Below the pieces are notes generated by a model. That model made no database searches, had not been told where the DNA came from, and saw only the letters and a program-made list of their open reading frames with translations. Source: Spirogloea muscicola (taxonomy: Eukaryota; Streptophyta; Zygnematophyceae; Spirogloeales; Spirogloeaceae). From it: a stretch of 26,275 bases of DNA. The position numbers and the translations under genes are program-made. Every line of letters starts with the position of its first letter. Within the stretch, counting starts at the first letter, position 1. Shown piece after piece: positions 53 through 24,990 of this stretch. The stretch is taken from assembly GCA_009602725.1 (NCBI GenBank), contig WELB01000433.1, positions 7,511 through 33,785 on the forward strand, given 5' to 3'.

Positions 53-3000
53 ATGGCAGTGGCGGAGCCGGCGTTGGAGGCGCCGGCGGCGGAGCCTGGC
101 CCGGCGTTCGGGAGCCTCGTGGACCTCTTCAGGGAGGCCGACGACGGCAGCCCCTGGGAGGGCTGGGAGGCCGGCGGCAGCGGCGGCGGCGGCGGCGGCG
201 GCACTACTGGCCCGAGGAGCGGCGCCGACAGCGGCGAGCTCGTCGGCGGCGACGACGGCGTCGTCGACGACGACGACGACGATGGCGCGACGTGGCAGCA
301 GCCGCGCGGCCGCGACGGCGCGGCGGCGGACCTGGCGGCGGGCCACGACTTCCGCGAGGAGGACTTGAACCGCCGCTTCAAGTTGCGCAACGGGAGGTAC
401 TATGGCTGCTCTCATTACACTGACCATAGGAAGAATGGAATGTGTATTGAGTGATAAGTGACCATCAAGGGCGAAAGTGGCTCACTCAAAGAGGGCGAGG
501 GCTGTGAACTGCCAGCCCAACGATAATTGACAAGGTGTCTTGAAGGAGCCGGTTAGCACTGTCCTTAAAGCTTAGGTGTAGGATAACCACTTGGTGACCT
601 CTGATAAGGGGGACCATGAGGGCAGTCGGCCATGTGTGGGTCCGGCAGGGGCGTCGCTTGCCCGCTGATGTAGACATGTGCCGCTGCTAACACTTCATAT
701 ATATATATATAATGTTAGTGAGATATTTAGTATGTGGGTGCTGTCAGGGAGGTGTTTGAGGAGCGAGCGTACCTGGTGGCCATTGAGCGCAAGTCCGGCG
801 GCGACAAGCAGGGGCTGTTCTCCGTGGAGGACTCCCTGGACGAGCTCTCGCAGCTCGCCGAGACCGCGGGCCTCCTGGTCGTCGGCTCTTCGTACCAAAA
901 GTGCGACGACGCCTTCTGGCACCCATTTCGCTGTCTTCTGAGTCCATAGCTCCATAAGCTGATGAGCAGAGTTAGACACTGAAGTGCTCGGAAACAGCTG
1001 GTATGACTAACATTGAACATTATGCCACAAAGGTGACGATGGAACCTTTGACTCTGTGTAAATTTCTATGAAAAGCTGATCCTCTGCATGCTGCAAGCAG
1101 ACTTGAGCATCCCAGCCCCAGAACATATGTTGGGGCGGGAAAGGTGTCGGACATACGAGCGGCCGTGACGTCGTTCGGAGTGGAGACCCTTGTCTTTGAC
1201 GACGAGCTGACAGCCGGGTACTACATGACTAACTCTGATTATCTCACATGAAGATGAGCAGGCCAGTTCATACTGGACATGCTTGTATCGCGAGAAGGAT
1301 CGCCCTCTAAAATTCAGAAAGGTTTCCAGCAAGTGGTACTTTATGTAAGGAGCTTGAGATGCGCTTGATGTGTTCACTCACTACCCGTTGTGTTTGATTG
1401 GTGAGAATTAGTGAGAGTTAGTGAGTATCAGCTTACTTGGACCTCATCGACCCTTGGTAGTCAGGCAGTTGAGGAACCTGGAGGAGGCTTTTGGAGCTGA
1501 CGTCAGGGTCTGCGATAGGACCGCCCTGATACTTGACATTTTCAGCCAGCGAGCCGCCACCAAGGAGGCCACATTGCAGGTTCGTACTGCGCCTATGGCT
1601 GTGCTTGTTGCTGGCAATTTGTCAACGAATATTAAGTACATTGTTCTACGGCACGGCTGTTACATTGATGCTAGGTTGGATTGAGCACAAGAAAATGCAA
1701 AGTCTTACACCTCATGCTCTAGTCTGCACGGCAAGCACTGCAGTTCAACTCAGATATGTTAGACGTGGTGGTTTTCTTACTTGGCAGGTTGAGTTAGCAC
1801 AGACAGAGTACCAGCTCCCGCGGCTGACCCGCATGTGGACGCACCTGGAGAGGCAAGCCGGAGGCCTGAGCAAGGGCATGGGAGAAAAGCAGATCGAAGT
1901 GGACAAGCGATTGCTGCGCAACAGGGTAATGTCACCACTTAAGAAATTGCATCACCCATCAGCAACACTTCAGCAATTGCAGAAAGCTTGTGACATTGGT
2001 CTTGTGAAGTTAGCGATCCATGGGCTGCGGCAGCATCATGATTATGCAGCCTTTCTTCTTGATGAAACTTATCAGAAAAGCTGGATCTACAACTGCATTC
2101 ATGCAGATCTCTGCCTTGAAGAGAGAGCTGGAGGCTGTGAGGGAGCACAGGCAGCAGTACAGGGACCGGAGGGCAGAGGTCCCCATTCCCGTCATCTCGC
2201 TGGTTGACACCTCCTGTCCCACTGGCTGTATAACTCTGTGATGATGGCACCTGCATAACCCGTTATGCAAGCTTAAGTAAGATCGTAGTAAGTTATTGAA
2301 CCTGAAGTTTGTGAATGCGACAGACCAATTAGAAGGCCAGCAGGTATCCTGCTCATTGCACAAAATTATACAACAGATGTGGGGCTTAGGGGTAATGCCC
2401 ATCCTGTAGGATGTAAACAAGCTGTACCTGCCAAACTCCTAGCTTGAGAGAGGGAAAAGCTCCGTCGTTTATGTGCTCTGACCAATTCGGTGCTTGCCCA
2501 TTGCTTCAGGTTGGCTACACCAATGCTGGAAAGAGCACGCTTCTGAACCGGATCACCAATGCCGGAGTCCTTGCTGAAGACAAGCTCTTTGCCACTCTGG
2601 ATCCCACGACCCGGCGAGTGGAGTTGCCGAACGGGAAGGAGTGTCTCTTCACAGACACTGTGGGGTTCATCCAGAAGCTACCCACAAAGTTGGTAAGCCT
2701 CTAATGAAAGAACTGAGTGGATATCTCTAGTCGGAAGTTTGGTGAGGAGCAGTACTCCGGTCTCTCCTGCGCATGCACAATTTAACGATAGATCCAGCTG
2801 AGATTGTTTCCAACTTCTGTAAAGGATAGCTTGATTGTTTGTATCAAAAGCTTGCCTGTTCTGCTAAGTGTGAGAGTGACTGATAATCACTGAGATGGGT
2901 GGCAGGTGGCGGCGTTTCGGGCAACGCTGGAGGAAATTAGCGAGGCGTCTCTCCTTATCCATGTTGTGGATGTCAGGTAGGAAGTGCAAGCAGGCTCTCT

Positions 3001-4271
3001 GTGCTCCACTAATTATCTTAGCTGTGCAATCTCCTAGGAATGCTCATCCAGTTTTCAGGAAGATTTGGTACCTTAATCTACACACCAAACTGGCAGAAAG
3101 CACTTAGTTTCCGATTATTATAAGCTGTGGCGTATTGCCCTTGTCATTGGCTTCAGTGATTTTCTTGATCGTGCATGCTGCTCCTTGTGTGCAGTCACCC
3201 CATGGTGGAGCAGCAGATTGCAGCAGTGGACAACGTGCTCGAGGAGCTAGAAGTCATCGACATTCCCATTCTGCATGTCTGGAACAAGGTCAGCAATGAG
3301 AACCCCAAAGCATCAAATTCATGAATCTTATAAACCCTTGGTTGCTGCCTGCGTGTGTTCATCGACCTGACTTTCCTACTGACTGCTATTTGTGATGTGA
3401 AACTCGTCTTGAAATGCATTCATGTCGCAAGATGTTCTTTACACATATAAGACTGGGGATGATAAAGGCAGAACTTGTCCTCCTCTGCAGATTGATAAGG
3501 CAGAGAACAGCAGAGCCTTGAAGCGAGCGGCACTCAGAAGAGGAAGCACGGTTTGTATCTCCGCACTGACTGGGGAGGGCATGGATACCTTCTACAATGA
3601 GGTTCAAGAGATGATTAAGGTGTGCCGGTTGCTGCAACCTGTTGGCATCTCAGTGACTACCTGTCATGTTGAGATTAATTTAGATCAGCTGTGTTGAGGC
3701 AAAGTAATGCTCTTCCTCAAGTGACTCTGCATTCCCATTGCATTGCCACTTTGACGTTTATTCAATCTCTACGCCTTGTGCTTTGCAGGATCTGCTTGTA
3801 TCAATAGAAGCAGTGGTGCCATACAGTCAAGGCGACATGCTCAATGTCATCCACCGCTTAGGCACTGTAGAAATAGAGGTATTGGCTTGGCCCGTCAAGA
3901 ACCCTCGTATCTAAGAGAATTAAGAGCATTGAGTAGCTGCTCCATTGCCTCTAAGTACTTATATATATTGAAGATTTATACTTCAATTCTCCAACTTTAT
4001 GCAGGCTTGTTGTGCTCTGTACTGCCCTTGCATCTCCTATGGGCTGGACCGATTTTACTGATCGTTTGTGTAAGTCTGGGCGCCTAATTGAGCTCGTTTC
4101 TCCATCCTGTGCCAGGAGTATCTGCCGGAGGGGACGCTGGTGCAGGCCCATGTGCCCCTGTCCCTGGCACGGCAGCTGCTCCCGCTTAGGACCTCAGCTC
4201 TAGCAGACCTTGTGGTGCCCACACAGACTGTGTACGATGCCAGTGAGGCGGCTTACCTGCAGAAGCTGTGA
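53..4271 (+). CDS. HFLX: HflX-family GTPase, 12 exons
   Basis: HflX proteins are GTPases that bind the large ribosomal subunit and split or rescue stalled ribosomes; eukaryotic copies usually act in chloroplasts or mitochondria. Exons joining in frame with GT-AG borders: 53-396, 748-900, 1101-1217, 1465-1579, 1788-1925, 2107-2202, 2510-2692, 2906-2976, 3195-3288, 3491-3619, 3789-3878, 4116-4271 (1686 nt, 561 residues plus stop). The HflX N-terminal domain spans exons 2-6 ([10 protein letters not shown]; the linker [17 protein letters not shown]). The G domain shows G1 GYTNAGKST (about residues 323-331), G3 DTVGF (370-374), G4 NKID (436-439, split by an intron) and G5 SALTG (461-465). The first ~110 residues are Ala/Gly/Asp-rich with poly-Gly and poly-Asp runs, not a clear transit peptide. 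The frame is open upstream to base 2, so the true start or a targeting exon may lie outside the window. All key GTPase residues are present. Confidence 0.93.
177..282 (+). repeat. In-frame GGC and GAC trinucleotide runs
   Basis: Within HflX exon 1, a GGC-type run at about 177-204 encodes poly-Gly and a GAC run at about 262-282 encodes poly-Asp. Both are outside the conserved HflX domains and probably arose by replication slippage. Confidence 0.8.
475..540 (-). repeat. Hairpin repeat (type A) in HflX intron 1
   Basis: On the minus strand this reads CTTGTCAATT, a T-rich stretch, GGGCTGGC, a short loop, CACAGCCC and then GAGTGAGCCACTTTC. That is the order seen in the many type A copies elsewhere in the window (for example 13713-13775 minus, 14302-14359 plus). 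It is diverged and sits between the splice sites of intron 1, so it should be removed with the intron. Confidence 0.7.
696..711. repeat. (TA)n microsatellite in HflX intron 1
   Basis: A pure TA dinucleotide run lies about 35 bases before the intron 1 acceptor (CTGTCAG, 741-747). Confidence 0.85.
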
Positions 4272-8127: not shown

Positions 8128-8287
8128 CTACCGTATGCGACTGTCTATGTCCCTGCAGCGCTCCCAAGCGCTTGCTTTGCACCGCCGCGCTGGTCGCGCC
8201 CTTGCAGCAGCCTCTGGCTTGCGCAGCGGGGTTGCTCTTCCTCCCCTCAGCTCATCTGACTTCCTACTGCTGACACGGGGGTATTGA
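8128..8287 (+). mobile_element. Retroelement C-terminal fragment
   Basis: This encodes the last ~50 residues of the RLE retroelement protein (YRMRLSMSLQRSQALALH, AGRALAAASG) and ends LLLTRGY with TGA at 8285-8287. It matches the C terminus of the long copy at 14300-16369 and is missing everything upstream, the usual outcome of 5' truncation. It starts 13 bases after the N at 8115. Confidence 0.85.
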
Positions 8288-8332: not shown

Positions 8333-8419
8333 ATGCATCTGGCTGGCATTTCACAGCCGATTCTTTCATATCAGCAGCCGCTTTCTTCTGCCTTGCTGTT
8401 GCTCACCCGTGGGTACTGA
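8333..8419 (+). mobile_element. Hairpin repeat joined to a retroelement stop-end fragment
   Basis: A short GGCTGGCATTTCACAGCC hairpin core is followed by codons for LLLLTRGY and a TGA at 8417-8419. Only the last ~10 codons of the retroelement frame are recognisable. Confidence 0.6.
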
Positions 8420-8755: not shown

Positions 8756-8914
8756 CCTTAGCCAGCTCATTACCCAGTTAACAGGACATTTGTAAGGCCC
8801 CCCTGTGCTGACATGACATCTTCATTTGTAAGGCTAGAATTGGCCTCCCTTTCTATTTCATGCGCACCGCGCGCCTTCTCTCTTCGGCACCGTTTTGTGG
8901 CCTTTGGATGTTGC

Positions 8915-8974
8915 CCATTCTTTTCTGGGCTGGCTTTGCTAGCCCCACTTTGTCTGTGGGCGAGCCATTTCTCT
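8915..8974 (+). repeat. Hairpin repeat (type B)
   Basis: The order is CCATTCTTTT, GGGCTGGC, TTTGCTAGCCCC and TGTGGGCGAGCCATTTCTCT. This is the type B layout (T-tract, GGGCTGG/CCAGCCC stem, then ATGGGCGAGC), with a changed base in the 3' arm. Confidence 0.75.
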
Positions 8975-9698: not shown

Positions 9699-11432
9699 TC
9701 ACGGCCGCAGCTCGTGCAGGCCAATGGTGAGGTCAGAGGAGATGGACATGAGGAGCGGCAAGGTGGGGTGCCACACGGCGCGCACCACACGCTTCTGGTG
9801 GGCGTCAATCGACAGCGCCGGCGATCGACCGAGCTGGCGGATGTCAAACACGTGGATCTGCGGGTCCGGCGAACCGACGGCGACGAGGCGCCCGCACGGC
9901 GACCACGACGCCTTGATGAGGCCCGACTGCTCGTCTGAGGTCGCCTGCTCGAAGCCAAACCAGTGCAGCTCCCGGGGCGACCGCGCGTCCCACAGCCGCA
10001 GCTGCTGCCCGAGCGTGCCAATCTGCACAAGCAGGAGGTTGGCGTCCAGCGCATTCGGCCGGCAAGCGATGGCCTTGCTGTTGAACGTGAGCTTGAAGGC
10101 CTGCTGCCCGTGCTCGACATCCCAACCGATCACTCGCTTGTCGAGGCCCGCAGACACCACGACGCCTCGCCGCGGCATGCCGTCCACATCCGTCACCGCC
10201 GATGTGTGGGCGTGGCGGTGCAGCAGCCTGGGGACCGGCTGCGAGGCCTGCCGGCTGCACTCCCACAGGACCACGGCGTGATCGCAGCCGCCCGTCGCAA
10301 ACAGCCGCCCATCGCCCCACGGCAGGAACGCCACCCTGTTGATGATGCCCTTGTCGTGGGGTGCACCCTCCAGCTTCCTCGCGCCCTCGCATTTTGGCGA
10401 GTTCGTGACGACCGCAGCCTGCCAGTCTCCGGGGGCTGCGTTGTATACGGCCACGAGGGCGGCGCCATCGGGCCGCCACGCCAGGTCCTGAGGGAAGGAG
10501 CGCTTGGGCGTCTCGCAGTTGATCGAGTGCCTCAACTCCACGTGCTCCCCCCTGCCCCTGATCTTCCACAGCTTGACGCGGCCATCAAGCGCGCTGGTCG
10601 CGCACTCGGTGCAGTCGTTGGGATTGATGAGGAGGGTGCGCAGCTTGCGCTGGTGCTGGGACGCGACGAACCGGCTCCCCACCCGCCGCAAGTGCCGCTG
10701 AACCCCAGCCGCCACGCAGCCAATGCGGTCCTCGTGCACCAGCGCTGTTGGGGAGAAGCTTGCGTGCAGGTTGCCAGCGGCGCTGCCGCCGGCCCTCTTC
10801 CCTCCTCCTGCTGAGGAGTCTGTTCTGCAGGAGTTGACGCTGCCGTTGCGCTGCCTTGGCGTGTCAGCCGATGCCTGTGCCTGCTTCCGCCCACTGCCGC
10901 AGCTACAGGGATCCCCTTGAAGAATCCTGGGAACGCCCCTGTCGTCTGTGAATGTGGCCCTTGTCGCGCATCTGCTGCAGCCCTGGTCCCGCCTGCTCCG
11001 GCCTGAGCATTCGGCGCGTCCTCCGTGGTCAACCTCCAAGCCATCTTCGCCAGCACCCCCGTTGCCGCCATCGTCCCCGTCCCGGTCGTCGTCGTCGTCG
11101 TCGTCGAGAACCTCGAATCGCCGGTGCCCGTCGGCGTGGCCGTTGGGCCCGCCATCAGGTGCGGCATGATGAGGACGCCTCCGTGGCGATTCCCGGCCTT
11201 CCAGAGAGACGTGCGGGGGTTGGCGGCCTGGGTGGAAGGCACCCGCCTGCTCCGGCTCCCGGCGAGCGGCAGCGGAGGCGTCAGGCCGGGCGGGGCTTCG
11301 GCGAGAGCGCGAGGCCGCCTGCCGGGCTGCGGGGTCGCTGCACGTCGTCTCCTCCTTGACCTGGGCCCGCTGCGCTCGCGGCTGTGGGGTCGGCGGCGGC
11401 GCAGGCCGGGCGGCGCCGTCNCCTCTCGCCAA
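9699..11432 (-). CDS. Seven-bladed WD40 repeat protein
   Basis: This uninterrupted 577-codon frame ends in TGA at 9699-9701. The C-terminal ~320 residues form seven WD-type repeats, recognised by segments such as ALDGRVKLWKI, FATGGCDHAVVLWE, VSAGLDKRVIGWDV, GTLGQQLRLWDAR and GSPDPQIHVFDIR, with the last ending SSDLTIGLHELRP. Seven blades suffice for one closed propeller, normally a protein-interaction platform; partners cannot be inferred. The N-terminal ~240 residues are Arg/Ala/Pro-rich low complexity with a poly-Asp run (LDDDDDDDRDGDD) and no recognised domain. The only upstream Met in the frame is at 11432. The N at 11421 makes residue 4 unknown, and an inverted-repeat element begins at 11441, so the first exon could be elsewhere. 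The lack of introns contrasts with the two upstream genes. Confidence 0.85.
   Translation of the reverse strand: MARXDGAARPAPPPTPQPRAQRAQVKEETTCSDPAARQAASRSRRSPARPDASAAARREPEQAGAFHPGRQPPHVSLEGRESPRRRPHHAAPDGGPNGHADGHRRFEVLDDDDDDDRDGDDGGNGGAGEDGLEVDHGGRAECSGRSRRDQGCSRCATRATFTDDRGVPRILQGDPCSCGSGRKQAQASADTPRQRNGSVNSCRTDSSAGGGKRAGGSAAGNLHASFSPTALVHEDRIGCVAAGVQRHLRRVGSRFVASQHQRKLRTLLINPNDCTECATSALDGRVKLWKIRGRGEHVELRHSINCETPKRSFPQDLAWRPDGAALVAVYNAAPGDWQAAVVTNSPKCEGARKLEGAPHDKGIINRVAFLPWGDGRLFATGGCDHAVVLWECSRQASQPVPRLLHRHAHTSAVTDVDGMPRRGVVVSAGLDKRVIGWDVEHGQQAFKLTFNSKAIACRPNALDANLLLVQIGTLGQQLRLWDARSPRELHWFGFEQATSDEQSGLIKASWSPCGRLVAVGSPDPQIHVFDIRQLGRSPALSIDAHQKRVVRAVWHPTLPLLMSISSDLTIGLHELRP
11085..11108. 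repeat. (GTC)n trinucleotide run
   Basis: A GTC/GAC run encodes the poly-Asp stretch of the WD40 protein on the minus strand. It is the same repeat type as in HflX exon 1. Confidence 0.8.
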
Positions 11433-11440: not shown

Positions 11441-11639
11441 TACTGGAAGAGTCTTTTCTTTTCTCTCTCCGTCCGTTCTTACGCCATCCGGCCCTCACAC
11501 CTTGTACGTTACTTTGGGCTGGCCTCTCACAGCCATTGCCGTAGATTGGAAGAGCTGTTCGTTCTCCCTCTCTCTGCGGCTCTCTCAGCAGCCGCAAGTC
11601 GGAGTAACTTGCAGCTGGAAAAGACAGACTCTTCCAGTA
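11441..11639. mobile_element. MITE-like element with 14-bp terminal inverted repeats
   Basis: TACTGGAAGAGTCT at 11441-11454 is exactly inverted at 11626-11639, followed inward by T-rich sequence on one side and its A-rich counterpart on the other. The interior holds a diverged hairpin repeat (GGGCTGGCCTCTCACAGCC, about 11512-11530) and no protein frame. A convincing target duplication is not visible. It ends 9 bases before the WD40 start codon. Confidence 0.65.
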
Positions 11640-11648
11640 GAGGGCGAT

Positions 11649-11690
11649 GGCTGTGATTGGCCAGCCCAGAAAAAAGATTGAATAAAGAAT
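11649..11690 (-). repeat. Hairpin repeat, inverted copy
   Basis: On the minus strand this reads TTTTTTCTGGGCTGGCCAAT followed by CACAGCCATCGCCC. It faces the copy at 11512 and lies just outside the inverted-repeat element. Confidence 0.6.
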
Positions 11691-12237: not shown

Positions 12238-12357
12238 CCCAATCAGCCACCAGTCAATCTGGCCGCGCTTTCTTCAATCAGGCAGTTAGGTGGGAGGAGG
12301 GTGGCCGCGCTCGCCAGAATGCCGGTGTCGAATTCCGCATGAACGGGGTAAAGAGAA

Positions 12358-12440
12358 GTGGTACTCCAAATGGGGGCAAGGGCTGTGAAAAGCCAGCCCA
12401 AAAAAAATTGACAAGGGTTCGGAGGGGCCGACAAGTGTTT
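12358..12440 (-). repeat. Hairpin repeat (type A)
   Basis: Minus strand: CTTGTCAATT, a T-tract, GGGCTGGC, TTTTCACAGCCC, TTGCCCCCATTTGGAGTACCAC. It forms the outer 3' flank of the minus-strand retroelement copy at 12441-13035. Confidence 0.8.
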
Positions 12441-13039: not shown

Positions 13040-13210
13040 TAGTCAATCGCCGTCCGGTATTCGAGCGTCAGCTAGCGACCTCTATGTGCTGACTCGTGGT
13101 TACTGAGCGGGTCAGCTTAGCAGCAGGTGACGTACATTTGTCCAATGTGCTTGCCTTTGTACTTGGCCACACATGGCCTCCCCATCTCTTAATATACACG
13201 CATTTTCTCG
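13040..13210 (+). mobile_element. Retroelement tail, family C 3' flank
   Basis: This codes for ASDLYVLTRGY with a stop at about 13096-13098, then CAGCTTAGCAGCAGGTGACG and TGCTTGCCTTTGTACTTGGC. The same order of stop codon, AGCAGCAGGTGA and GTACTTGGCC recurs at 19073-19200 (+) and 19525-19660 (-). Confidence 0.7.
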
Positions 13211-13408
13211 AGGACGGGGTAAACGCTAAAATTGAGGGTGTCAAGTAGCTACGAAACACTCAGTAACCCCTACGAAGGAAAATTTTCGTGTATTTGAAAC
13301 AAACGAAGGGGGGTTTACTGACGAAGCAGCCGCAGGTCGGAGAAACTAGTCTCCTAATAAGAACGAGGTATGAGGACTCTTCCATTGAGCATTCTTCTCT
13401 TGCAGTGA

Positions 13409-13630
13409 AAGAAGTGGCACTCCCAATGGGGGCAAGGGCTGCGAAAAGCCAGCCCAAAAAGAATTCACAAAGGTTCAGAGGGGCCTAAGAGCGGTGAGCA
13501 GCTACAGAGGGGCCTGAGGATGCAATGGTAAAACAGGGGGAAGATGGATCACTCAATAAGTAGAGTGAGGAGCCTCAGATCCGACAGACTAGCTGCCGGG
13601 AAGCTATCACCCAGACGAAAGCCAGAGCCC
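13409..13630 (-). mobile_element. Retroelement 3' end, minus strand
   Basis: This is the reverse complement of the 3' end of the long copy: the last ~25 codons (13560-13630) and then the 3' UTR ending in a type A hairpin repeat at 13409-13470. Its sequence is nearly the same as the two direct copies at 14183-14359 and 16340-16516. Confidence 0.85.
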
Positions 13631-13665
13631 TCTTGCAGTGGAGGAGAAGAAGAAGGATGCCTGTG

Positions 13666-13775
13666 ATTTTCAAATTTTTTCGGGCTGGCTTTTCACAGCC
13701 CTTGCCCCCCATTTGCGATGGGGGCAAGGGCTGTGATAAGCCAGCCCAAAAAGAATTGACAAGGGTTCGGAGGGG
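13666..13775. repeat. Two hairpin repeats tail to tail (palindrome)
   Basis: A plus-strand type A copy (GGGCTGGCTTTTCACAGCCC, TTGCCCCCCATTTG) is directly followed by a minus-strand copy (GATGGGGGCAAGGGCTGTGA, TAAGCCAGCCC). The two arms form a near-perfect palindrome with a spacer of only a few bases. Confidence 0.85.
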
Positions 13776-13830: not shown

Positions 13831-13990
13831 AGAAGTGGCAACCCAAATGGGGGCAAGGCAAGGCAAGCACATCTGAAGACCTACATAATCTACAGCAAAT
13901 TGACCCGCTCAATAACCACGGGTCAAAACAAACATAGAGAAGAGGGGCTGGCAGAGCCAACCCAAAACGAATGGACACTGTCCAAAGCCA
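13831..13990 (-). repeat. Degenerate hairpin repeats, minus strand
   Basis: A partial type A 3' end (GAAGTGGCAACCCAAATGGG) at 13831-13850 is followed by a type B-like copy at about 13938-13990, whose minus strand reads TGTCCATTCGTTTTGGGTTG, GCTCTGCCAGCCCC. Confidence 0.6.
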
Positions 13991-14059: not shown

Positions 14060-14182
14060 AGCCGCACCAATCTGTCGGTACCAATCTGTCGGCGGCGGCC
14101 ATCCTCCGGCCCTTTTTTATCTGGTCTCACCAATCTGGGGCGCCCGGCTTCCCGGTGCAGACGCCCCGGCTTGCCCTGTCCA
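14060..14182 (+). repeat. Dispersed repeat shared with 24008-24125
   Basis: It contains CACCAATCTG, GGCGCCCGGCTTCCCGGTGC and CCGGCTTGCCC. The same order with substitutions occurs at 24008-24125 (ACACCAATCTGGGCCGCCCG, GCTTGCCAGTGCAGACGGCC). No coding potential is recognised. Confidence 0.6.
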
Positions 14183-14359
14183 TCGGATCTGAGGCTCCTC
14201 ACTCGTACTTATTGAGTGATCCATCCTCCCCCTGTTTTACCATTGCATCCTCAGGCCCCTTTGTAGCTGCTCACCGCTCTTAGGCCCCTCTGAACCTTTG
14301 TGAATTCTTTTTGGGCTGGCTTGTCGCAGCCCTTGCCCCCATTGGGAGTGCCACTTCTT
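14183..14359 (+). repeat. 177-bp direct repeat, left copy
   Basis: It runs from TCGGATCTGAGGCTCCTC, the last codons of the retroelement frame, through the 3' UTR to CCACTTCTT. The right copy is 16340-16516, also 177 bp with only scattered differences. The left copy is the 3' end of another element joined to the 5'-truncated long copy, not an LTR, because it includes coding codons and a stop. Confidence 0.85.
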
Positions 14360-16369
14360 CTGTCCATCCGCGCGGCCCTGAATCTCCACCCTGACTGGAT
14401 GGTCCTGGCGGTAGATGTGCAAAATGCAATCAACAGCGTCGAGCGCAGCGCCATCGCCGAGGAGCTGCGAGCGGCCTTCCCGTCCCTCATCCCCTTCTTC
14501 CGCCTGGGCTACGGCCAGCCCAGCGACCTTCTATGGCGGACAGGGAGTGGCGAGATGGAGACGCTGCAGTCGAGGACGGGCACACGCCAGGGGGATCCTC
14601 TAGCAGGGTTCTTCTTCGCGCTGGCTCACAGCCGCGCTCTCAGGGCCACCGCGGCGGCGCACCCCGGCGTCCTTCTGCCGTCCTACGCCGACGACACCAC
14701 GCTCGTCGGCAGCCCGGGGGAGGTCTCGGCAGCCACCGTCACCTTCCAGCAGCAGCTGGCCGCCCTTGGCATGACCATCCGCCCGGAGAAGTGTACCGCG
14801 TGGTCGCCGCGTGTCCTCCCTGCCGCCTTGCCCCTGCCGCCTGGGTGCCAAACTCCCCCAAGCGGCCTCACCATCCTTGGGGTCCCGTTCGGCACGCCAG
14901 CGTTCGTCGACGGGCAACTGCGCGTCCGCCTTCAGGAGCACCTCCAGCCAGTGGCCCGCCTCCCCGAGCTGCAGGACATGCAGCTGGCGCTTGCCATGCT
15001 CAATCGATGCATTGTGCAGCGTCCTCACTACTTGGCGCGGACGACCCCTCCCTGCCCCGCGGTGCTGGCGGCCTACACCACATTCGACACGGGGGTCATG
15101 GAGGGCGCGGCGGCCCTCATCCGCCACGATGGCTTCCTTGCCTCGTCAGCCGCTACGCTCCAGGCCACACTGCCCCCTGGCCAGGGCGGCCTCGGCTGCC
15201 GCTCGCTCGCGCGCGTCTGCAGGCCAGCATTCCTCGGCAGTTGGGCACAGGTCGCCACGTCGGTGGCGCAGCGCTTCCTCCATGATGGGCGGCCCCTGCT
15301 GCAGCAGGTTGTGGAGGAGGTGGCGACTGGCTCGCTGCCTTTCCAGGAGGCCCTCCGCTCAGCCCAGGACGGGTTACTCGCGGAGCATCCGGCCCTTGCA
15401 GAGAGCGTGGTCCCCTTCGCTCACCTCGCCCACACCTCCGACTCGCAGGCGCAGGCGCGATACATGGCTGCTGTGGACAAGGCGACGTTCACGGACACGC
15501 TGCAGCTCCTCCCCGCAGGCGACGTGCGCGGCCGTGCTCGGCTGCTGTCGGCCGCCTCCCCCGGCGCGGCAGCCTGGCTCTCTGCGCTCCCACTGTATGA
15601 TGCGCTCAGGCTGCCGGACGAGCTGTTCCGCACGGCCACGCATCGCCTGCTGGGCCTCCCCCCGCCCTGCCTGCTGGGCGTGCTGCAGTGCGAATGTGGG
15701 GAGCGGTCGACGGACCCGGCGGAGCTGGCGGCGCATCTCCTCCGCTGCGCCACTGGAGGCGAACGAACAGCTGCGCACGACCTCTTGCGTGATGCTATGT
15801 TCGGGATCTTTCAGGAGGCGGGCTACACGGTAGCGATGGAGAACGCCTCGGTCATGCCCATCCTCGAGAGGGCTGACGGACACCATACGCGTCGTGTGGA
15901 CCTGGTGGCGTCCACGCCGGGAGGTGGCGCGCGGATCATAGCCGATGTAGTCACCACCGATGTGGTCGACCGCTCCAACCTGGGGCTCTCTGCCTCGCGG
16001 GCCGGCCACGCTGCCTCGAAGGCCGCTCGCTGCAAGGCGGCCAAGCACTCCGATCACCCACCTGCCGACGAGTTCGTCCCCTTGGCGGTGGACGTGCACG
16101 GGGCTCTTGGGTCCCAGTGGCTTGACCTATTGGCTAGGCTTGCGCGGCGGGCTGTGTCCCGCAGACGCGGCGAGCCAGCCGACTTCAACGCCGCGGGCTC
16201 GTGGGCTCAGGTATATCGGATGCGCCTCTCTGTATCCCTGCAGCGGTCCATGGCCCACGCTCTGCATCTGCGAGCTGGCCGTGCTCTCGCTGCGGGCTCT
16301 GGCTTTCGTCAGGGTGATAGCTTCCCGGCCGCTAGTCTGTCGGATCTGAGGCTCCTCGCTCGTACTTAA
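14300..16369 (+). CDS. RLE-type non-LTR retrotransposon polyprotein, 5'-truncated
   Basis: This 689-codon frame carries reverse transcriptase palm motifs: A with VLAVDVQNAINSVE (Asp39), B with RQGDPLAG (Gln97-Pro100), C with YADD (129-132), and D/E with GMTIRPEKC and ILGVPFG. The fingers (motifs 0-2) are missing, and the first ~24 residues are translated from a hairpin repeat and the 3' UTR of another copy, so the native N terminus is lost. The C-terminal third has a C-x-C-x12-H-x3-C knuckle (Cys464, Cys466, His479, Cys483) and a VD-x14-D pattern (Asp534, Asp549), as in restriction-like endonucleases of R2/CRE/NeSL-type elements. Such elements nick the target and prime reverse transcription there. 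The frame is open to TAA, so the copy is young, but without fingers it is unlikely to be autonomous. Confidence 0.92.
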   Translation: MNSFWAGLSQPLPPLGVPLLLSIRAALNLHPDWMVLAVDVQNAINSVERSAIAEELRAAFPSLIPFFRLGYGQPSDLLWRTGSGEMETLQSRTGTRQGDPLAGFFFALAHSRALRATAAAHPGVLLPSYADDTTLVGSPGEVSAATVTFQQQLAALGMTIRPEKCTAWSPRVLPAALPLPPGCQTPPSGLTILGVPFGTPAFVDGQLRVRLQEHLQPVARLPELQDMQLALAMLNRCIVQRPHYLARTTPPCPAVLAAYTTFDTGVMEGAAALIRHDGFLASSAATLQATLPPGQGGLGCRSLARVCRPAFLGSWAQVATSVAQRFLHDGRPLLQQVVEEVATGSLPFQEALRSAQDGLLAEHPALAESVVPFAHLAHTSDSQAQARYMAAVDKATFTDTLQLLPAGDVRGRARLLSAASPGAAAWLSALPLYDALRLPDELFRTATHRLLGLPPPCLLGVLQCECGERSTDPAELAAHLLRCATGGERTAAHDLLRDAMFGIFQEAGYTVAMENASVMPILERADGHHTRRVDLVASTPGGGARIIADVVTTDVVDRSNLGLSASRAGHAASKAARCKAAKHSDHPPADEFVPLAVDVHGALGSQWLDLLARLARRAVSRRRGEPADFNAAGSWAQVYRMRLSVSLQRSMAHALHLRAGRALAAGSGFRQGDSFPAASLSDLRLLART

Positions 16370-16516
16370 TGAGTGATCCATCCTCCCCCTGTTCTACCAT
16401 TGCATCCTCAGGCCCCTTTGTAGCTGCTCACCGCTCTTAGGCCCCTCTGAACCTTTGTAAATTCTTTTTGGGCTGGCTTTTCGCAGCCCTTGCCCCCATT
16501 GGGAGTGCCACTTCTT
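16340..16516 (+). repeat. 177-bp direct repeat, right copy (retroelement 3' end)
   Basis: It begins in the last codons of the long copy, passes the TAA at 16367-16369, a conserved UTR (GAGTGATCCATCC, CCTCAGGCCCCTTTGTAGC) and ends in a type A hairpin repeat at 16454-16516. Confidence 0.85.
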
Positions 16517-16517
16517 T

Positions 16518-16640
16518 CTTACTCTGGGCTGGCCTCTCACAGCCACCGCCCACCCTTGATTTAGCAGCAGGTGACGTACATTTGTCAAATGTACTGGCCT
16601 TTGTACTTGGCCACACAGGCCCTCCAGAATGAGTTGTATA
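16518..16640 (+). repeat. Hairpin repeat plus family C 3' flank
   Basis: GGGCTGGCCTCTCACAGCC at about 16526-16544 is followed by TTAGCAGCAGGTGACGTACA and GGCCTTTGTACTTGGCCACA. This stretch ends about 60 bases before the start of the secreted wall protein gene and must lie in its promoter or 5' leader. Confidence 0.7.
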
Positions 16641-18884: not shown

Positions 18885-19200
18885 TTGCTGAGAGAGTTGC
18901 GGCGTTTTGTGAGGAAGTGCTTCCGGATGAGATGGGTCTGCCGGCAGAATATCGTCGTTCTTGCGCTGTCGGTTGTCAGCCTGTTTGCAGCGAGCTCATG
19001 CTTTGAAGCAGGCTGGACGAGCTTTAGGTGGTGGCGGAAGGGCTTTGGAATCTGCCGTCCGGTATGTGGACTAACGACCTCTACCTGCTGACCGTGCTTA
19101 TCGAGCCGGTTGACTTGGCAGCAGCTTACATACATCTGTGAATGTGCTTGTCTTCGTACTTGGCTTACCCAGGCCCTCCATCACTCAATACACGTGTTTT
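18885..19200 (+). mobile_element. Degenerate retroelement tail with family C flank
   Basis: Frames include LLRELRRFVRK and, after a shift, LQRAHALKQAGRALGGGGRA, then NDLYLLT near 19075. It is followed by GCAGCAGCTTACATACATC, GTGCTTGTCTTCGTACTTGG. It is the same 3' end as 13040-13210 but more decayed. Confidence 0.7.
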
Positions 19201-19254: not shown

Positions 19255-19345
19255 TCCCTTTGGAAAGAGCTGCGTATCTTCCATAAGCAGAAACAGCTCT
19301 TCCAAGGTACGGCAATTGCTGTGAGAGGCCAGCACAGAGCAATGA
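19255..19345. repeat. Imperfect inverted repeat with hairpin remnant
   Basis: TTGGAAAGAGCTG at about 19260 is inverted as CAGCTCTTCCAA at about 19301, followed by a minus-strand remnant GGCAATTGCTGTGAGAGGCC. It is related to the interior of the element at 11441-11639. Confidence 0.55.
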
Positions 19346-19524
19346 AGAAATTTTGGAAGGACCAGAAGGCGCCAAAGCCCGAGACTACTCTCCATGACTT
19401 CAGCATGCTAACGCTCGATAAAGGTCAATGAGCAACTGCAGCTCCGCATATGTAGAGGGCAGAAAAGCGTCGTCAGAGTGGGCGAGGGCTTCCTACTATA
19501 CAAGGTGAATGGAGTGTGTACCGA

Positions 19525-19665: not shown

Positions 19666-20026
19666 CAAAGTGGGCTCTTGGGCTTTCTCGTCTGAAATTT
19701 AAGCTTCTGTTTAAACAAAGCGGGCGGCAGGATGTGTTGTGCACCGATGCCATGTGTGGCCCGATACGCCATGTTCCTTGTTCCGATTATTGCACAAACG
19801 CCTGCTTGGCCGGACAGAGCAAGAGTGCGAGAAGTCACGATACTACCGTCACGATACTACTCGTCGATAGCTCAGTCCCGTCAATGACTTAGTTAGCTGA
19901 CCTGGGTTCACACGTAGAGATCTCATGCTTAGTCACACCTTTCTGGTGTGACTTCGAAATATTGCAGAATTTACAAAGAGTAATTTCGTTGATTTGCACC
20001 TTCTGGCCCTTTCAGAACTTGCTCGA
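19666..20026. other. Stretch without recognised features
   Basis: No protein family, RNA gene or clear repeat was recognised. The only local structure is a 12-base direct repeat, GTCACGATACTA, at about 19836 and 19849. Confidence 0.4.
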
Positions 20027-20245
20027 TAGGCTGGCCTCTCACAGCCTTTGCCTTACATTGGAGAGCTGTGACTCTTTCGTGTAAATGAATATTGAGATGG
20101 AGACCAATTTCAAACAAGATCGAGGCAACGACTCAACAGATCCGTGCTAGAATGACTGCGAAGCAAAGACAAAGAGACAAAGACTCGTTGGGTAGAGCGC
20201 GATGGCTGTGATCGGCAGCCCAGGAATGAGATTGAACAATGTCTG
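20027..20245. repeat. Facing pair of hairpin repeats
   Basis: A plus copy (AGGCTGGCCTCTCACAGCCT, about 20030) and a minus copy (GCGATGGCTGTGATCGGCAG, CCCAGGAATGAGATTG, about 20198-20235) face each other across ~150 bases. The arrangement resembles 11512/11649. Confidence 0.6.
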
Positions 20246-20482: not shown

Positions 20483-20549
20483 GACCCTTGTTAATTCTTT
20501 TCGGGCTTGGCTTCTCACAGCCCTTGCCCCATTGGGAGAGCCACTTCTT
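20483..20549 (+). mobile_element. 67-bp hairpin element with 5-bp target duplication
   Basis: The retroelement frame ...LPF|QVALRS is split between CTTTC (20478-20482) and a second CTTTC (20550-20554). Removing 20483-20549 and one CTTTC restores homology to the long copy (LPFQEALRS). The inserted 67 bp is a type A hairpin repeat from GACCCTTGTTAATTC to GCCACTTCTT. Its ends are not inverted repeats. Confidence 0.75.
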
Positions 20550-20576
20550 CTTTCAAGTGGCGCTCCGCTCTTGTAC

Positions 20577-20815
20577 ATTCTGCACCTTGTACAGAATGTA
20601 CAGTCTGTACTTGTACCATTGTACCATTGTACCTTGTACCATTGTACCTTGTACATTCTTTTTGGCTGGCCTCTCACCTTTTCCTTTTTCGCCAACTTTT
20701 CTTTTTGGGTTTTTGGACATTGCCCATTCTTTTATGGGCTGGCTTTGCCAGCTCTTCTCTATGTGCGAGCACTTTCTTCTACTCACAGCCACCAGTCAGT
20801 TTGGAAGCGCTGTTT
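20577..20815 (+). repeat. Composite insertion: TGTAC array and two hairpin repeats
   Basis: It contains a TTGTACC-type array with TGTACA palindromes (20577-20662), a truncated copy (TTTTTGGCTGGCCTCTCACC, about 20657) and a type B copy (CCATTCTTTT, GGGCTGGCTTTGCCAGC, 20717-20780). It lies between codons for LRS and AHNELLAG, which match contiguous LRSAQDGLLA in the long copy. Confidence 0.7.
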
Positions 20816-21130
20816 TTTACCTCGGCACACAACGAGCTACTCGCGGGGCACCAAGCCCTGGCCGAGAGCGTGGTGCCCATTGCACATCTATCAATACGCA
20901 CCAACTTGCGGTCGCAGGCGCGGTACATGGCCGCGGTCGACAATGCGGCCTTCACGGCCACGCTGCTGCTCCTGCCTCCGACAAACGGGCGCAGGCATGC
21001 CCGGCTGCGGTCGGCATCGTCCCCTGATGCGGCAGCCTGGCTCTCCGCGCTTCCGCTCTACGACGCACTCAGGATGACGGACGAGCTCTTTAGCACGGCA
21101 GTCCATCGCCTGCTTGGTCTCCTCCGGCCC

Positions 21131-21198
21131 TGTCCATTCCTTTCGGGCTGGCCTTTCCCAGCCACCAGTCAATCCGGCCGCGCGTGCTTGTCTGCAGG
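21131..21198 (+). mobile_element. Hairpin repeat insertion in the retroelement frame
   Basis: It separates LLRPC from GVLQCEC, which are adjacent in the long copy. It reads TCCATTCCTTTCGGGCTGGC, CTTTCCCAGCCACCAGTCAA, then CCGGCCGCGCGTGC. The block begins near GT and ends in TGCAG, so it could mimic an intron, but its content is the hairpin repeat. Confidence 0.7.
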
Positions 21199-21536
21199 GC
21201 GTATTGCAGTGCGAGTGCAGGGAACGGTCGGCGGACTCGGCGGAGCTGGCGGCGCATGTCCTCCGCTGCACCGCGGAGGTGAACGCACGGCAGCCCACGA
21301 CCTCCTCAGGAATGCCATGTTTGGCATATTTGTACCGCCGGCTACACAGTGGCGAAAAACAATTCTTCCTATTGCCAAACCTCCTATTGCCAAACCTCCA
21401 AAAAACAACAATCGAAGGCCAATATGGCCAAGAACAATGGGCTGAGCGTCCTCTGGCTGATGTCTTCGTCCTAGTCCAAAGGCACTGACTGTAGTATAGT
21501 TCTTTTACGGCTCCTCTTTCTTTGGCTTGGGGATAT

Positions 21537-21770
21537 TGTCCATTCTTTTTGGGCTGGCTTTGCCAGCCACTCTTCTCTATGGGCGAGCACATTCCTCAAT
21601 GGGGGCAAGGGCTGTGAAGAGCCAATCCGATATGAATCGACAGGTTCAAAGGGGCCAAAAACTCTTAGCAGCTACGAAGGGGCAAGGAGGGGCCGGAAGA
21701 AAGAAGAAGTGGCAATCCCAATGTGGGCAAGGGCTGCGAAAAGCCAGCCCAAAAAGAATTGACAATGTCA
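21537..21770. repeat. Cluster of three hairpin repeats
   Basis: A type B copy on plus (about 21537-21597: CCATTCTTTTTGGGCTGGCT, TTGCCAGCC, ATGGGCGAGCAC) abuts a type A copy on minus (about 21598-21655). A second type A minus copy follows at about 21705-21770. Confidence 0.8.
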
Positions 21771-22480
21771 CGTTCGGACATAACAAGCAGGTTAGAGCCG
21801 AATGTGTCCTATTGATTTGAGTGCTTGGGTATTCAGGGACAACCACCCGCCACGAGGAAGCACTCCGACACAGCGGAAGACTTGCCCCTGTGGTGATGCC
21901 GCTAAATAGCACCCACGGGCACACGCTGTAGCCTTACCTCCCGCAGCACGCCGCCAGATCCGCAAGAGCAGCCGGCAACGAGCCGCGCGGGGCAGCGGTC
22001 TACAGCAGCAGGCAGCCGCAGGGCTGCGTGCCTCTCCGAGCGTCACTGAGTCCCCAGCCCTAATGTCGGGTCTCTCTCTGCTCGTGCAATAGTTAGTGCT
22101 TCTCCGTGCCAACCCCCCTCAAGGGTGTATGGGGGTCGCCCCAAGGCTCGCCCACGAGGAGCGTGCCTGACGAGGGAACCATGAGCTGTCTCCAGCAGGC
22201 GCCATGGCGCCGGGCATGGCCGCGGCGGGCATGGCGCCGAGCATGGCCGCGGGCGGCCATGCCGTCGGGGGCGTCCGGGCCCACGCATGCCGCCGAGCAT
22301 GTCTGGGCTGAGCATGACGGGAGCATGCGAGGCCACCCGGACGAACCTGGACGGAACGACAACGGCACGAGTGCCAGGGCGGTTCGTGCCGTCCGGCACA
22401 AACGGCCAAATGAACACCAGGTAAGCGTTAACAACAGTCAGGCGCTCACAAACCTGGGAACGTTACAGACAATGGGCGAC
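21771..22480. other. GC-rich region with GCATGGC reiterations, possible exon
   Basis: At about 22200-22320 the sequence is built from repeated GCATGGC/CCGCGGGC-type words. A good splice donor (CCAG|GTAAGC) at about 22419 follows a frame open for several hundred bases, so this could be a host exon. No family resemblance was recognised. Confidence 0.3.
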
Positions 22481-22660
22481 AGCCAGCCCCTCTCCTCAAT
22501 GGGCGAGCCCTTTCTTCTGTGCTTCTTTCTTAGTGCTTCGCCTTAGTGCTTCGCCTGGCCCCCTTCTTCTTGGGCTTCTTGTACTCTGCTCATTCTTGTT
22601 TGGGCTGGCTGTTCCAGCCCCTATCCTCAATGGGCGAGCTCTTTCTTTCTTCCTCAGGGG
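22480..22660 (+). repeat. Two type B hairpin repeats
   Basis: A partial copy (GCCAGCCCCTCTCCTCAATG, GGCGAGCCCTTTCTTCTG, about 22483-22520) and a full copy (CTCATTCTTGTTTGGGCTGG, CTGTTCCAGCCCC, about 22588-22655). Confidence 0.8.
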
Positions 22661-22711
22661 CACTGCCGGCCCTTCTCCCCCCCCGGCCATCCCTCCTCCT
22701 ACCGTCGCCTG

Positions 22712-23069
22712 CGCCGCTCGGGCAAAAGAGATCAAGTACGCCGACCATCCGCCGGAAGACGCGTTCTTCCCGTTGGCAATTGACATCCATGGGGCACTGG
22801 GCGCTCGGTGGCGTGAGCTACTTAACCAGCTCGCCCGCCACGCAATCGCCCGTCGCTTCCATGGTGAGCCGGTAGACTTTCCTGCAGCCGGGTCGCTGGC
22901 GCAAGTGTATCGCATGCACTTGGCCGTCTCGCTGCAGTGGTCCATGGCCTGTGCGCTGCACCTTCTTCGTGCCGGAAGAGCCCTAGCTGCTGCCTCTGGC
23001 TCTGTCCAGGGGACCCACTTCCAGGACCCTAGCATCTCTGATCTGCGGCTGCTCAGCAGGAATTACTGA
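22712..23069 (+). mobile_element. Retroelement C-terminal fragment, open frame
   Basis: About 118 codons read without interruption: KEIKYADHPPEDAFFPLAID, IHGALGARWRELLNQLAR, AGSLAQVYRMHLAVSLQ, SDLRLLSRNY and a stop at 23067-23069. It is a relative of, not identical to, the long copy (a distinct subfamily), truncated upstream at a hairpin repeat. Its 3' end is duplicated in inverse at 23447-23738. Confidence 0.85.
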
Positions 23070-23215
23070 GTCATTCGTAGCTGCTTTGTTTCTTTTTGTG
23101 CTTGTTTTTCTTAGCGCTTTCCCTGGCTCCCTTCTCGTACTTTGTCCATTCTTTTTTGGGCTGGCTGTTCCAGCCCCTATCCTCAATGGGCGAGCTCTTT
23201 CTTCCCTTTGCTGCT
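22930..23215 (+). repeat. Long inverted repeat, left arm
   Basis: It runs from CTCGCTGCAG through the last retroelement codons, stop, 3' UTR and a type B hairpin repeat (23146-23212). The right arm is 23447-23738 on the opposite strand, with high identity. Confidence 0.8.
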
Positions 23216-23286
23216 GCCCTACTCCTACTCCTCTAGCAGCCCAGAAGCTGCTAGATGCTAGCTGCTATGTCATAAGATGTGCTTGC

Positions 23287-23423
23287 CTTTGTACTTGGCC
23301 ATTTTGGCCTTCGATTGTTTCAAATACACGAATATTTTCCCCTGACGAAAGCCGGAGGCAATAAAGAAAAGGAAGGATTCGTGTATATGAGACAAACGAA
23401 GGCCAAATGGCCAAGTACAAAAA
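23287..23423. repeat. Inner inverted repeat
   Basis: TTTGTACTTGGCCATTTTGG (about 23289) with CAAATACACGAAT is inverted as ATTCGTGTATATGAGACAAA and CCAAATGGCCAAGTACAAA (about 23368-23420). It lies within the loop of the longer inverted repeat. A related CGTGTATTTGAAACAAACGA stretch is at 13285-13310. Confidence 0.75.
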
Positions 23424-23446
23424 AAAGAAAGGAGACAAGCGCGGCC

Positions 23447-23738
23447 ACGTTAACTGGTTGGCTGGGAGAGAAAGAAAGAGCTCGCCCATTGAGGATAGGG
23501 GCTGGAACAGCCAGCCCAAAAAAGAATGGACAAAGTACGAGAAGGGAGCCAGGGGAAGCGCTAACAAAAACAAGCACAAGAAGAAACAAAGCAGCTACGA
23601 ATGACTCAGTCATGCCTGCTGAGCAGCCGCAGATCAGAGAGGCTAGGGTCCTGGAAGTGGGTCCCCTGGACAGAGCCAGAGGCAGCAGCTAGGGCTCTTC
23701 CGGCACGAAGGTGCAGCGCACGGGCCATGGACCTCTGC
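23447..23738 (-). mobile_element. Retroelement 3' end, minus strand, inverted-repeat right arm
   Basis: The minus strand encodes SMARALHLRAGRALAAASGS and SDLRLLSRH followed by a stop, then the 3' UTR and a type B hairpin repeat (23464-23535). It is a close copy of 22930-23215. Confidence 0.8.
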
Positions 23739-23826
23739 AGCGAGAAAGAGCGCGCCCATAGAGAAAGGTGGATCCTTTCTAAAGCGACTGGCGCGGCGCG
23801 GCGCGTCCGTACCGAGCGGGGCGCGG

Positions 23827-23930
23827 AAGCGTCCGTACCGTCCGGGCACAGCGGCGGCGCGGCGCCTAGTTGGCGCGCAAGCGTCCGTACCGTCCGGGCA
23901 CAGCGGCGGCGCGGCGCCTAGTTGGCGGCG
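23827..23930. repeat. 52-bp tandem duplication
   Basis: A GC-rich unit starting AAGCGTCCGTACCGTCCGGG occurs at 23827-23878 and again at 23879-23930, almost unchanged, with a third diverged partial copy just upstream. Confidence 0.8.
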
Positions 23931-24007
23931 CGCCGGCAACCAGTGGTCTAGTGGCGGGCGCCATCTAGACCTCTGGCGGGATGACGGCCTCTCCGTAGCG
24001 GAGCGGG

Positions 24008-24217
24008 CCCCAGCCCGGCCAACCCGTCGGCGGCGGGTCATCCTTCGACCGACCGTCTGGTCCCACACCAATCTGGGCCGCCCGGCTTGCCAGTGCAGAC
24101 GGCCAGGCTTGCCCACCTGCACGCACGCGTCTTGGGCTAGAAGCTGCTCACCCCCTCGCCTCTCTTTGGGCTGGCTTTTCGCAGCCCTTGCCCCCATTGG
24201 GAGTGCCACTTCTTCTT
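24008..24217 (+). repeat. Second copy of the 14060 repeat plus a type A hairpin repeat
   Basis: 24008-24125 resembles 14060-14182. At 24160-24213 follows GGGCTGGCTTTTCGCAGCCC, TTGCCCCCATTGGGAGTGCC, ACTTCTT, identical in layout to 16454-16516, and then TTGTACTTGGCC. Confidence 0.7.
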
Positions 24218-24329
24218 GTACTTGGCCATTTGGCCTTTCAAGTACAGTAGAACCTGTCTAAGGTTATGCGGTCGGTTGGGGAGATTTGTATAACGATACA
24301 CAGGTTATAGCTATAAACAGGTTACTGCT

Positions 24330-24386
24330 TAACCCCTGACCCCTAGGGTTAAGGGGTTAGGGGTAGGGTTAAGGGTTAGGGGGTTA
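24330..24386 (+). repeat. Interstitial telomere-like repeats
   Basis: It reads as degenerate TTAGGG/TTAAGGG/TAGGGG units in both directions around a CCCTAGGG centre. Units are irregular, so this is not a functional telomere. Confidence 0.7.
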
Positions 24387-24413
24387 AGCGCTTAGCGTGA
24401 CGTCACGTGACAC

Positions 24414-24478
24414 AGGTCGCACGGTTGGTCGCACGGACGTCGCACGACCGTCGCACGGTCGCACGCCGTCGCACGGTA
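24414..24478 (+). repeat. GTCGCACG short tandem array
   Basis: About seven copies of GTCGCACG with spacers of 0-5 bases lie in the interior of the MITE. Confidence 0.8.
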
Positions 24479-24679
24479 TTTGTATAAGCTTATATTTGAG
24501 AAAAACATATAAAGTATGGAAGTAGAGAGGATATAAGCTTACGCCACTAAACCGACTCGATTGGCCAGAATTTGATAACCTTAGACAGGATATAAGCTTA
24601 TGGAGGATAAGCTTAGACAGGTTTTACTGTACACGAATTTCTTCCTATCCGGCCGGCCGGCTGCATCCGGCCGGCTCCC

Positions 24680-24849
24680 TGGCCCAGGTATCCCGGATGC
24701 GGCGCTCCGTGTCCCTCCAACCCTCCCTCGCCTATGCCGTCCACTCGCGTGCGGGCCGCGCTATCACGGCTGCTTCTGGGTCGCGTCTGGATGAATCTTT
24801 TCCTGCGTCGAGCTACTCCGACCTGATGTTGCTCACCCGGGGGTATTGA
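24680..24849 (+). mobile_element. Retroelement C-terminal fragment
   Basis: It codes for LAQVSRMRRSVSLQPSLAYA, VHSRAGRAITAASGS and SDLMLLTRGY, with TGA at 24847-24849. This diverged but uninterrupted tail begins about 50 bases after the MITE. Confidence 0.8.
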
Positions 24850-24919
24850 GCTTCCTGTGATTTCGTCGTGTCTTCTTCTCTAGCTGCCTAGCTGTTTGTT
24901 TTTTGTTTTGTTTTTTTGG

Positions 24920-24990
24920 CTTTTGACAGTCCATTCTTTCTGGGCTGGCTTTGCTGGCCCCCTTTCTCTATGGGCGCGCACTTTCTTCTT
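24920..24990 (+). repeat. Hairpin repeat (type B)
   Basis: GTCCATTCTTTCTGGGCTGG, CTTTGCTGGCCCCC, TCTATGGGCGCGCACTTTCT, with the type B order. Confidence 0.75.

Follow-up and report, generated by a model that had tools for sequence, protein, structure and literature searches.

Several retrotransposon groups are known to carry a conserved structure at their 3' end. In long interspersed nuclear elements (LINEs) of the UnaL2/ZfL2 type an endonuclease (EN) domain lies before the reverse transcriptase (RT), and both binding of the 3' stem-loop and the requirement for it have been shown by experiment (PMC4176376). The R2 protein binds a two-stem core, roughly 40 nt long, in the 3' untranslated region (UTR) of its RNA (PMC10499050), and R2 also produces 5'-truncated copies (PMC7650587). 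LINEs with a restriction-like endonuclease (RLE) have the domain order finger-RT-CCHC-RLE (PMC5678591, PMC10499050), and among them HERO includes many non-specific families, some of them microsatellite-specific (PMC4640811). In Chlamydomonas, the RandI/Dualen LINEs and the SINEX short interspersed nuclear elements (SINEs) share 3' ends and have non-poly(A) tails, with (CTTT)n in one SINE (PMC3747384). Here we describe a short hairpin repeat in a 26,275-nt stretch of the Spirogloea muscicola genome (contig WELB01000433.1, positions 7,511 to 33,785, forward strand; hereafter the window). The hairpin forms the 3' end of LINEs, probably of the RLE type, and a separate tiny element is not supported. 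With good confidence we take it to be the last ~60 nt of LINEs in a diverse group with very many copies, whose protein probably binds the motif for target-primed reverse transcription.

The association with the LINEs was assessed using copies selected by protein alone. The LINE protein of the window had at least 65 matches in the genome (64 of 18,646 candidates were scored), and in many of these the open frame was roughly 1,330-1,430 aa long. Among 54 further protein matches that reached the C-terminus, 3' flanks were taken for 37 (the first 20, then every second) and searched for the hairpin with at most one substitution allowed per arm. The hairpin was present in 37/37 copies, 64-122 nt 3' of the match to the open reading frame (ORF), and in only one (L138), which may contain an independent hairpin copy, was the spacer atypical. 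A loose stop-codon pattern gave 33/36, a count that included wrong frames and was not relied on; the protein-selected set was used instead. The initial annotation, made from the letters of the window, had proposed that an RLE retroelement carries the hairpin at its 3' end, which the 37 copies bear out. It had also stated that a tiny element would be refuted if genome-wide copies always ran into the same retroelement UTR and had no independent ends. This applies in part: the hairpin is a piece of a retroelement UTR, although its copies begin at independent positions scattered along it, in some cases between target duplications.

Hairpin copies were counted in several ways. The core GGGCTGGC had 24 matches in the window on both strands, where 2.78 were expected on average and none of 100 shuffles scored as high. 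A looser hairpin pattern gave 34 matches, a number containing double counts and chance matches, as compared to 2-6 per run in 20 first-order Markov simulations. A 67-position covariance model (R1) was trained on 32 sequences, 24 from the genome outside the window and eight from the window, and found 29 window matches at E of 0.02 or below, eight of which match by construction because they were part of the training set. Of these matches, 27 had E of 0.005 or below and spanned 471 to 24988, and the remaining two (8341 and 16527) were weak partials. The original count of more than two dozen copies on both strands therefore held, and its estimate of about 28 copies between 475 and 24990 agrees with the 27 R1 matches. 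Both subtypes first described, A and B, are real, and there are at least two more, type C (GGCTGGCCTCTCACAGCC..TTGGAAGAGCTGTT) and type D (GGGCTGGCnnCTCCCAGCCACCAGTnAAT). The motif layout first given needs correction in that the copies run on into a common 3' end. Searching 153 Mb of genome located the exact type A core at 1,129 places and the type B core pattern (six free positions) at 7,130, for 8,259 core matches combined, with 0 matches for the reversed control of each. Longer repeats in the window contain several hairpins (182 nt at 14178/16335; 437 nt, inverted, at 12354/16079), and the hairpin is therefore part of a larger unit.

Conservation and folding of the terminal motif were then compared between subfamilies. 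For 14 subfamily representatives (91 pairs) mean identity was 78% in the terminal 60 nt, a value raised because the segment was anchored on the hairpin with ~13 letters nearly fixed, as compared to 70% in the ORF end and 50% in the UTR before the terminus; shuffled identity was 34% for the terminus and 40% for the UTR. For type B, the inner stem read in the initial annotation stood, while the TCATTC/CCATTC upstream of it is predicted to pair with AATGGGC and so to form the left side of an outer stem. In 20 type B sequences (16 ORF-linked and four from the window) the outer helix G[UC][UC]CAUU/AAUGGG[CU] was paired in 90.7% of cells and the inner stem GGGCUGG(C)/(G)CCAGCCC, which lies within it, in 93.1%. 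Both stems together were paired in 92% of cells as compared to 24-52% in slid controls, a control that favours the B structure because the structure was read from those same sequences. These B-only counts replace an earlier one on a mixed alignment, in which the outer helix was 77.7% paired (63.4% overall, with the inner helix placed one column off). RNAalifold on mixed subtypes gave eight pairs, one changed on both sides, and fold z scores against shuffles ranged from -1.9 to -4.2 in five B copies. In copies extending at least 35 nt, the left arm carried CATT in 39/45 of type B, and CAAT in 16, GAAT in 9 and CATT in 3 of 34 of type A. The exchange of CAAT/ATTG for CATT/AATG between the A and B arms is suggestive only, because the search patterns dictated the right arms and the register is displaced by one position. 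The terminal motif is thus constrained, whereas its fold is likely in type B, weakly predicted in types A, C and D, and proven in none of them.

A motif in this position could instead be a 3'-end formation or stability signal, similar to a terminator, of LINE RNAs without poly(A), and not a site read by the RT. The 3'-terminal location, the lack of any poly(A) seen there and the strong predicted B stem would all suit such a signal. However, conservation is not confined to paired positions but includes, for example, the CUU end, and in the systems described above (stringent LINEs and R2) such motifs serve recognition. We consider this explanation unlikely, and the two roles are not exclusive.

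The ends of the copies were determined in a sample of 160, comprising all 100 type A places listed of the 1,129 (contigs C1-C8) and 60 of the 7,130 type B places (the first 64 listed, all on contig C1, minus four close neighbours). At the 3' side the A core was followed by ACTTCTT in 74/100 and ACTTCTC in 13/100, and the B core by one variable base and then CTTTCT in 35/60, with variants in the others. Past this end lay other DNA as judged by eye, often after extra pyrimidine repeats (TCTT or CTT, for example), and 87/100 copies tested had a pyrimidine run of at least 6. The 5' ends were graded from 4 nt to >190 nt above the core with no evident peak and no common head. These extents were taken from the third-longest alignment among the fetched sequences, cut at 200 nt, and are therefore lower bounds. 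Homology ended within 185 nt upstream in 131/160 copies, reached no more than 60 nt above the core in 60/160 (30/100 A, 30/60 B) and no more than 30 nt in 26/160 (13/100 A, 13/60 B). Long copies extended upstream into the LINE UTR and ORF. Five copies (L053, L057, L067, L089 and L105) were truncated within the hairpin itself, and still shorter ones would escape the search patterns. Exact flanking repeats of at least 8 bp were found in 23/131 copies (2.2 expected) and of at least 10 bp in 10/131 (0.3 expected), the clearest being 15 bp (L048), 12 bp (L037, L052 and L089) and 10 bp (L060). The smallest copies were 32-37 bp and began within the hairpin: a 37-bp insert (L089) and a 32-bp insert flanked by TATTC repeats inside the ORF end of another LINE (L105). 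A 59-bp insert (L006) could be compared with the same site uninterrupted at window position 8186. Near-constant 3' ends combined with graded 5' ends indicate that the tiny copies arose as LINE insertions shortened from the 5' side, and in this respect the copies look mobilised by the RLE retroelement, as had been suggested. The LINE group is ordinary in kind; what is unusual is its copy number and the brevity of its copies.

The same ends bear on the distinct tiny non-autonomous element first envisaged, which would be a SINE-like unit of ~60 bp with its own head, moved in trans by the RLE LINE via the shared tail. The 26 shortest copies do hold little besides the hairpin, and the copies at window position 21126 and L006 begin near a TGTC/TCAATTC boundary. 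Against this, the 160 copies have no common 5' end, some start inside the hairpin, the long ones continue into LINE sequence, and the hairpin accompanied every protein-selected LINE. No recurrent non-LINE head was noticed in the 200-450 nt upstream, where no systematic head search was made. A SINE-like element is therefore disfavoured and in our judgement very improbable. A miniature inverted-repeat (MITE) or foldback DNA element with the hairpin as its inverted arms would fit the facing pairs in the window, but it has virtually no likelihood and was rejected, as the arms measure 6-8 bp and do not lie at the termini, the ends are asymmetric with a pyrimidine tail on one, the 5' ends vary and the flanking repeats range from 4 to 15 bp.

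The protein encoded upstream of the hairpin is consistent with an RLE LINE. The window ORF (14294-16369) matched RVT_1 (E 5.6e-11) and continued in frame past the RT into CxCGx11HxxxC and then RRVDLVA..ADVVTTD..K, and the key residues of CxCG..HxxxC and RRxDLVA..DVVTTD..K were invariant in 6/6 aligned copies. An intact natural copy (L156) has a single 1,336-aa ORF with an RVT_1 match (E 8.3e-16) and a weak C2H2 finger under the Pfam cut-off (E 0.09), and its best matches in PDB were three R2 retrotransposon proteins (E 7e-7 to 1.1e-6). The CxCGx11HxxxC spacing differs from the CX2-3CX7-8HX4C given in PMC5678591. The putative domain order is that of RLE LINEs, and the restriction-like endonuclease is probable from the sequence motifs; the clade may be R2, NeSL, HERO, Utopia or another. 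A scan confined to the 1,336-aa ORF of L156 gave no match to Exo_endo_phos, the apurinic/apyrimidinic endonuclease (APE) domain, at E values of 5 or less. Dualen carries both APE and RLE.

Several results weigh against a terminal recognition motif of RLE LINEs, in addition to the anchoring of the terminal identity and the origin of the slid control given above. The truncated window ORF matched R2 in PDB only at E 1.5, the RLE assignment rests on motifs as the C-terminal profile had no match in PDB, and the AlphaFold model of the C-terminus was poor (pLDDT 40). No flanking repeat of at least 8 bp was found in 108/131 copies. In type B, pairing equalled that of shuffles (92.0 vs 91.8%), as did the covariation score (0.093 vs 0.097), and no two-sided pair changes occurred in the 20 sequences, all changes being one-sided, so that covariation does not support the fold. 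Fold z scores for type A (-0.5, -1.3), type C (+0.5) and type D (+0.55, -0.6) were hardly beyond shuffles.

The post-ORF position, the common 3' end, the graded 5' ends, the excess of target duplications and the extra conservation were observed directly and form the basis of the proposed mechanism. Protein binding, tail priming and all RNA-level events we infer by analogy with stringent LINEs and R2. The element RNA would end in the hairpin followed by GAGC/GTGCC and (C/A)CTT(T)CTT. The LINE protein would probably bind this terminal motif and nick the DNA, and the nicked strand would prime on the CUU-rich tail. The RNA would then be copied from its 3' end, with copying often ending within 100 nt. 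Such early stops would leave most sampled insertions 5'-truncated, and some hairpin-sized or smaller, and this would account for a repeat that resembles an unknown mini-element. A stronger version, in which a main inserted unit is the terminal hairpin itself, present as a short RNA that was processed or copied prematurely, and in which an RT that habitually halts after a few dozen nucleotides leaves large numbers of 30-70 bp scars, we regard as quite doubtful. If true, it would make the hairpin a source of micro-insertions and a recognition motif evolving slower than the coding end of its enzyme.

The hairpin copies and linked LINE pieces in the window are as follows, with E values from R1 unless stated otherwise.

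471-537, minus strand: short type A-like copy, probably intronic within a GTPase gene as read from the sequence (E 1.8e-12)
8341-8358, plus strand: weak partial hairpin, model positions 21-38 (E 0.019)
8907-8974, plus strand: type B-like hairpin ~620 nt 3' of an RLE ORF end whose stop ends at 8287 (E 8.7e-13)
11498-11564, plus strand: type C hairpin copy (E 3.4e-11)
11619-11689, minus strand: type C hairpin copy (E 2.3e-8)
12352-12418, minus strand: type A hairpin (R1) that ends a LINE copy on the reverse strand, ORF stop at 12497; long inverted match to 16079-16515
13408-13474, minus strand: type A copy (E 1.1e-16)
13663-13766 (13663-13734 plus strand, 13695-13766 minus strand): facing type A pair, a tail-to-tail fusion without tails (R1 and sequence)
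13925-13982, minus strand: B-like copy without 3' end (E 1.7e-7)
14294-14360, plus strand: type A 3' terminus (R1), with the next LINE copy seeming by eye to start right after its tail
14361-16369, plus strand: 5'-truncated LINE ORF with RT, CCHC-like and RLE-like motifs and stop, within the open frame 14294-16369 (RVT_1 match as above; start by eye)
16451-16517, plus strand: type A hairpin, 3' terminus of the LINE at 14361-16369, ~80 nt past its stop (E 5.1e-17)
16527-16559, plus strand: weak partial type C hairpin (E 0.015)
19287-19353, minus strand: type C copy (E 3.6e-10)
20009-20075, plus strand: type C copy (E 8.9e-9)
20188-20243, minus strand: type C-like copy (E 0.004)
20484-20550, plus strand: type A copy (E 1.7e-12)
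20645-20686, plus strand: partial hairpin (E 0.0004)
20716-20779, plus strand: type B copy (E 8.6e-12)
21126-21192, plus strand: type D copy of ~60 bp that splits a LINE ORF fragment; whole relative at 15640-15720 (E 7.5e-11)
21532-21597, plus strand: type B copy facing 21578-21647 (E 4.2e-17)
21578-21647, minus strand: type A-like copy without tail, facing 21532-21597 (E 0.0012)
21703-21769, minus strand: type A copy (E 2.5e-16)
22473-22517, plus strand: type B copy without the 5' part of the motif, model positions 19-67 (E 3.9e-5)
22582-22648, plus strand: type B copy (E 7.1e-17)
22701-23069, plus strand: ORF of a type B LINE, C-terminal end (open frame)
23138-23204, plus strand: type B hairpin, 3' terminus of the LINE at 22701-23069 (E 5.3e-19; fold z -4.2)
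23471-23537, minus strand: type B hairpin at the 3' terminus of a LINE end in reverse orientation, stop at 23606 (R1)
24149-24215, plus strand: type A copy; a short stretch of homology upstream was seen by eye (E 4.1e-12)
24923-24988, plus strand: type B hairpin at the 3' terminus of another LINE end, whose stop ends at 24849 (R1)

The stretches 14178-14359 and 16335-16516, which hold the two type A ends around the window ORF, are 96% identical. The facing copies at 13663-13766 and 21532-21647 and in L128 are tail-to-tail fusions from which the tails are gone, with a palindromic junction in two by eye; such an arrangement is not expected from target-primed insertion of two copies. In L020 an 18-bp type A 3'-end fragment (TGGGAGTGCCACTTCTTC) seems by eye to stand in place of a LINE ORF stretch, a possible template jump.

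Insertion preference for old tails was weak and is not claimed, with 12/97 copies as compared to 94/1,940 control positions in a loose test and 4/97 as compared to 195/19,400 in a strict one. L015, L044, L073 and L112 lie at the tail of an older copy. Among the type B places listed on contig C1, 17/99 neighbour intervals were below 500 bp (2.2 expected) and 5/99 below 120 bp (0.5 expected), clustering that may reflect only transposon islands. At 13055-13200, 16590-16640, 19130-19200, 23270-23330 and 24216-24240, LINEs of this type (ORF end LTRGY at 13106) seem to form a second group with a different terminal hairpin, TTGGCCAnnnTGGCC, and AATACACG after it; TGTACNTGGCCATTTGGCCT had 1,284 genome matches. 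A different repeat of the GATATAAGCTTA/CTTAGACAGG and GGGTTAAG type was seen by eye at 24230-24650. An integrase-like frame at 25335-26020 (by eye) is probably a piece of a long terminal repeat retroelement, and a 48-nt inverted repeat lies at 25285/26228. The window also contains a WD40-repeat gene (9702-11429, minus strand) and a GTPase exon (2510-2692, plus strand; MMR_HSR1 E 2.2e-15) of a gene that we take to be HflX.

The kind of element is already known, and the family is absent from Rfam at gathering score, a scan of the window giving 0 matches. No published description of the hairpin family was found under green-algal or trebouxiophyte RLE LINEs and truncated hairpin copies, in a search of titles and abstract openings with subscription papers and Repbase outside its scope. 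For repeat annotation, the copies described here mean that a LINE copy can take the form of a micro-insertion of 30-70 bp and may then be missed. The subfamilies A-D place divergent enzymes and matching tail RNAs within one genome, material for studying RNA choice by RLE LINE proteins that is relevant to R2-based gene insertion. The closest algal precedent found is the RandI/Dualen and SINEX pairing of Chlamydomonas, although no SINE head was noticed in the Spirogloea copies. HERO, NeSL and Utopia are RLE LINEs, as the Spirogloea elements probably are. R2 has the same putative RT-CCHC-RLE order, a small RNA core in its 3' UTR that may resemble the terminal motif, and 5'-truncated copies. R2 inserts in 28S rDNA, whereas the Spirogloea copies are scattered; the sampled copies have diverse flanks, several inside other LINEs, and rDNA itself was not searched. 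The stringent-type LINE tails (UnaL2, ZfL2-1 and ZfL2-2; L2 clade) differ in sequence, and we infer here the binding and requirement that experiment established there, but in both cases related LINEs share a conserved 3' terminus, with a stem-loop there and a predicted one here, and a short repeat tail.

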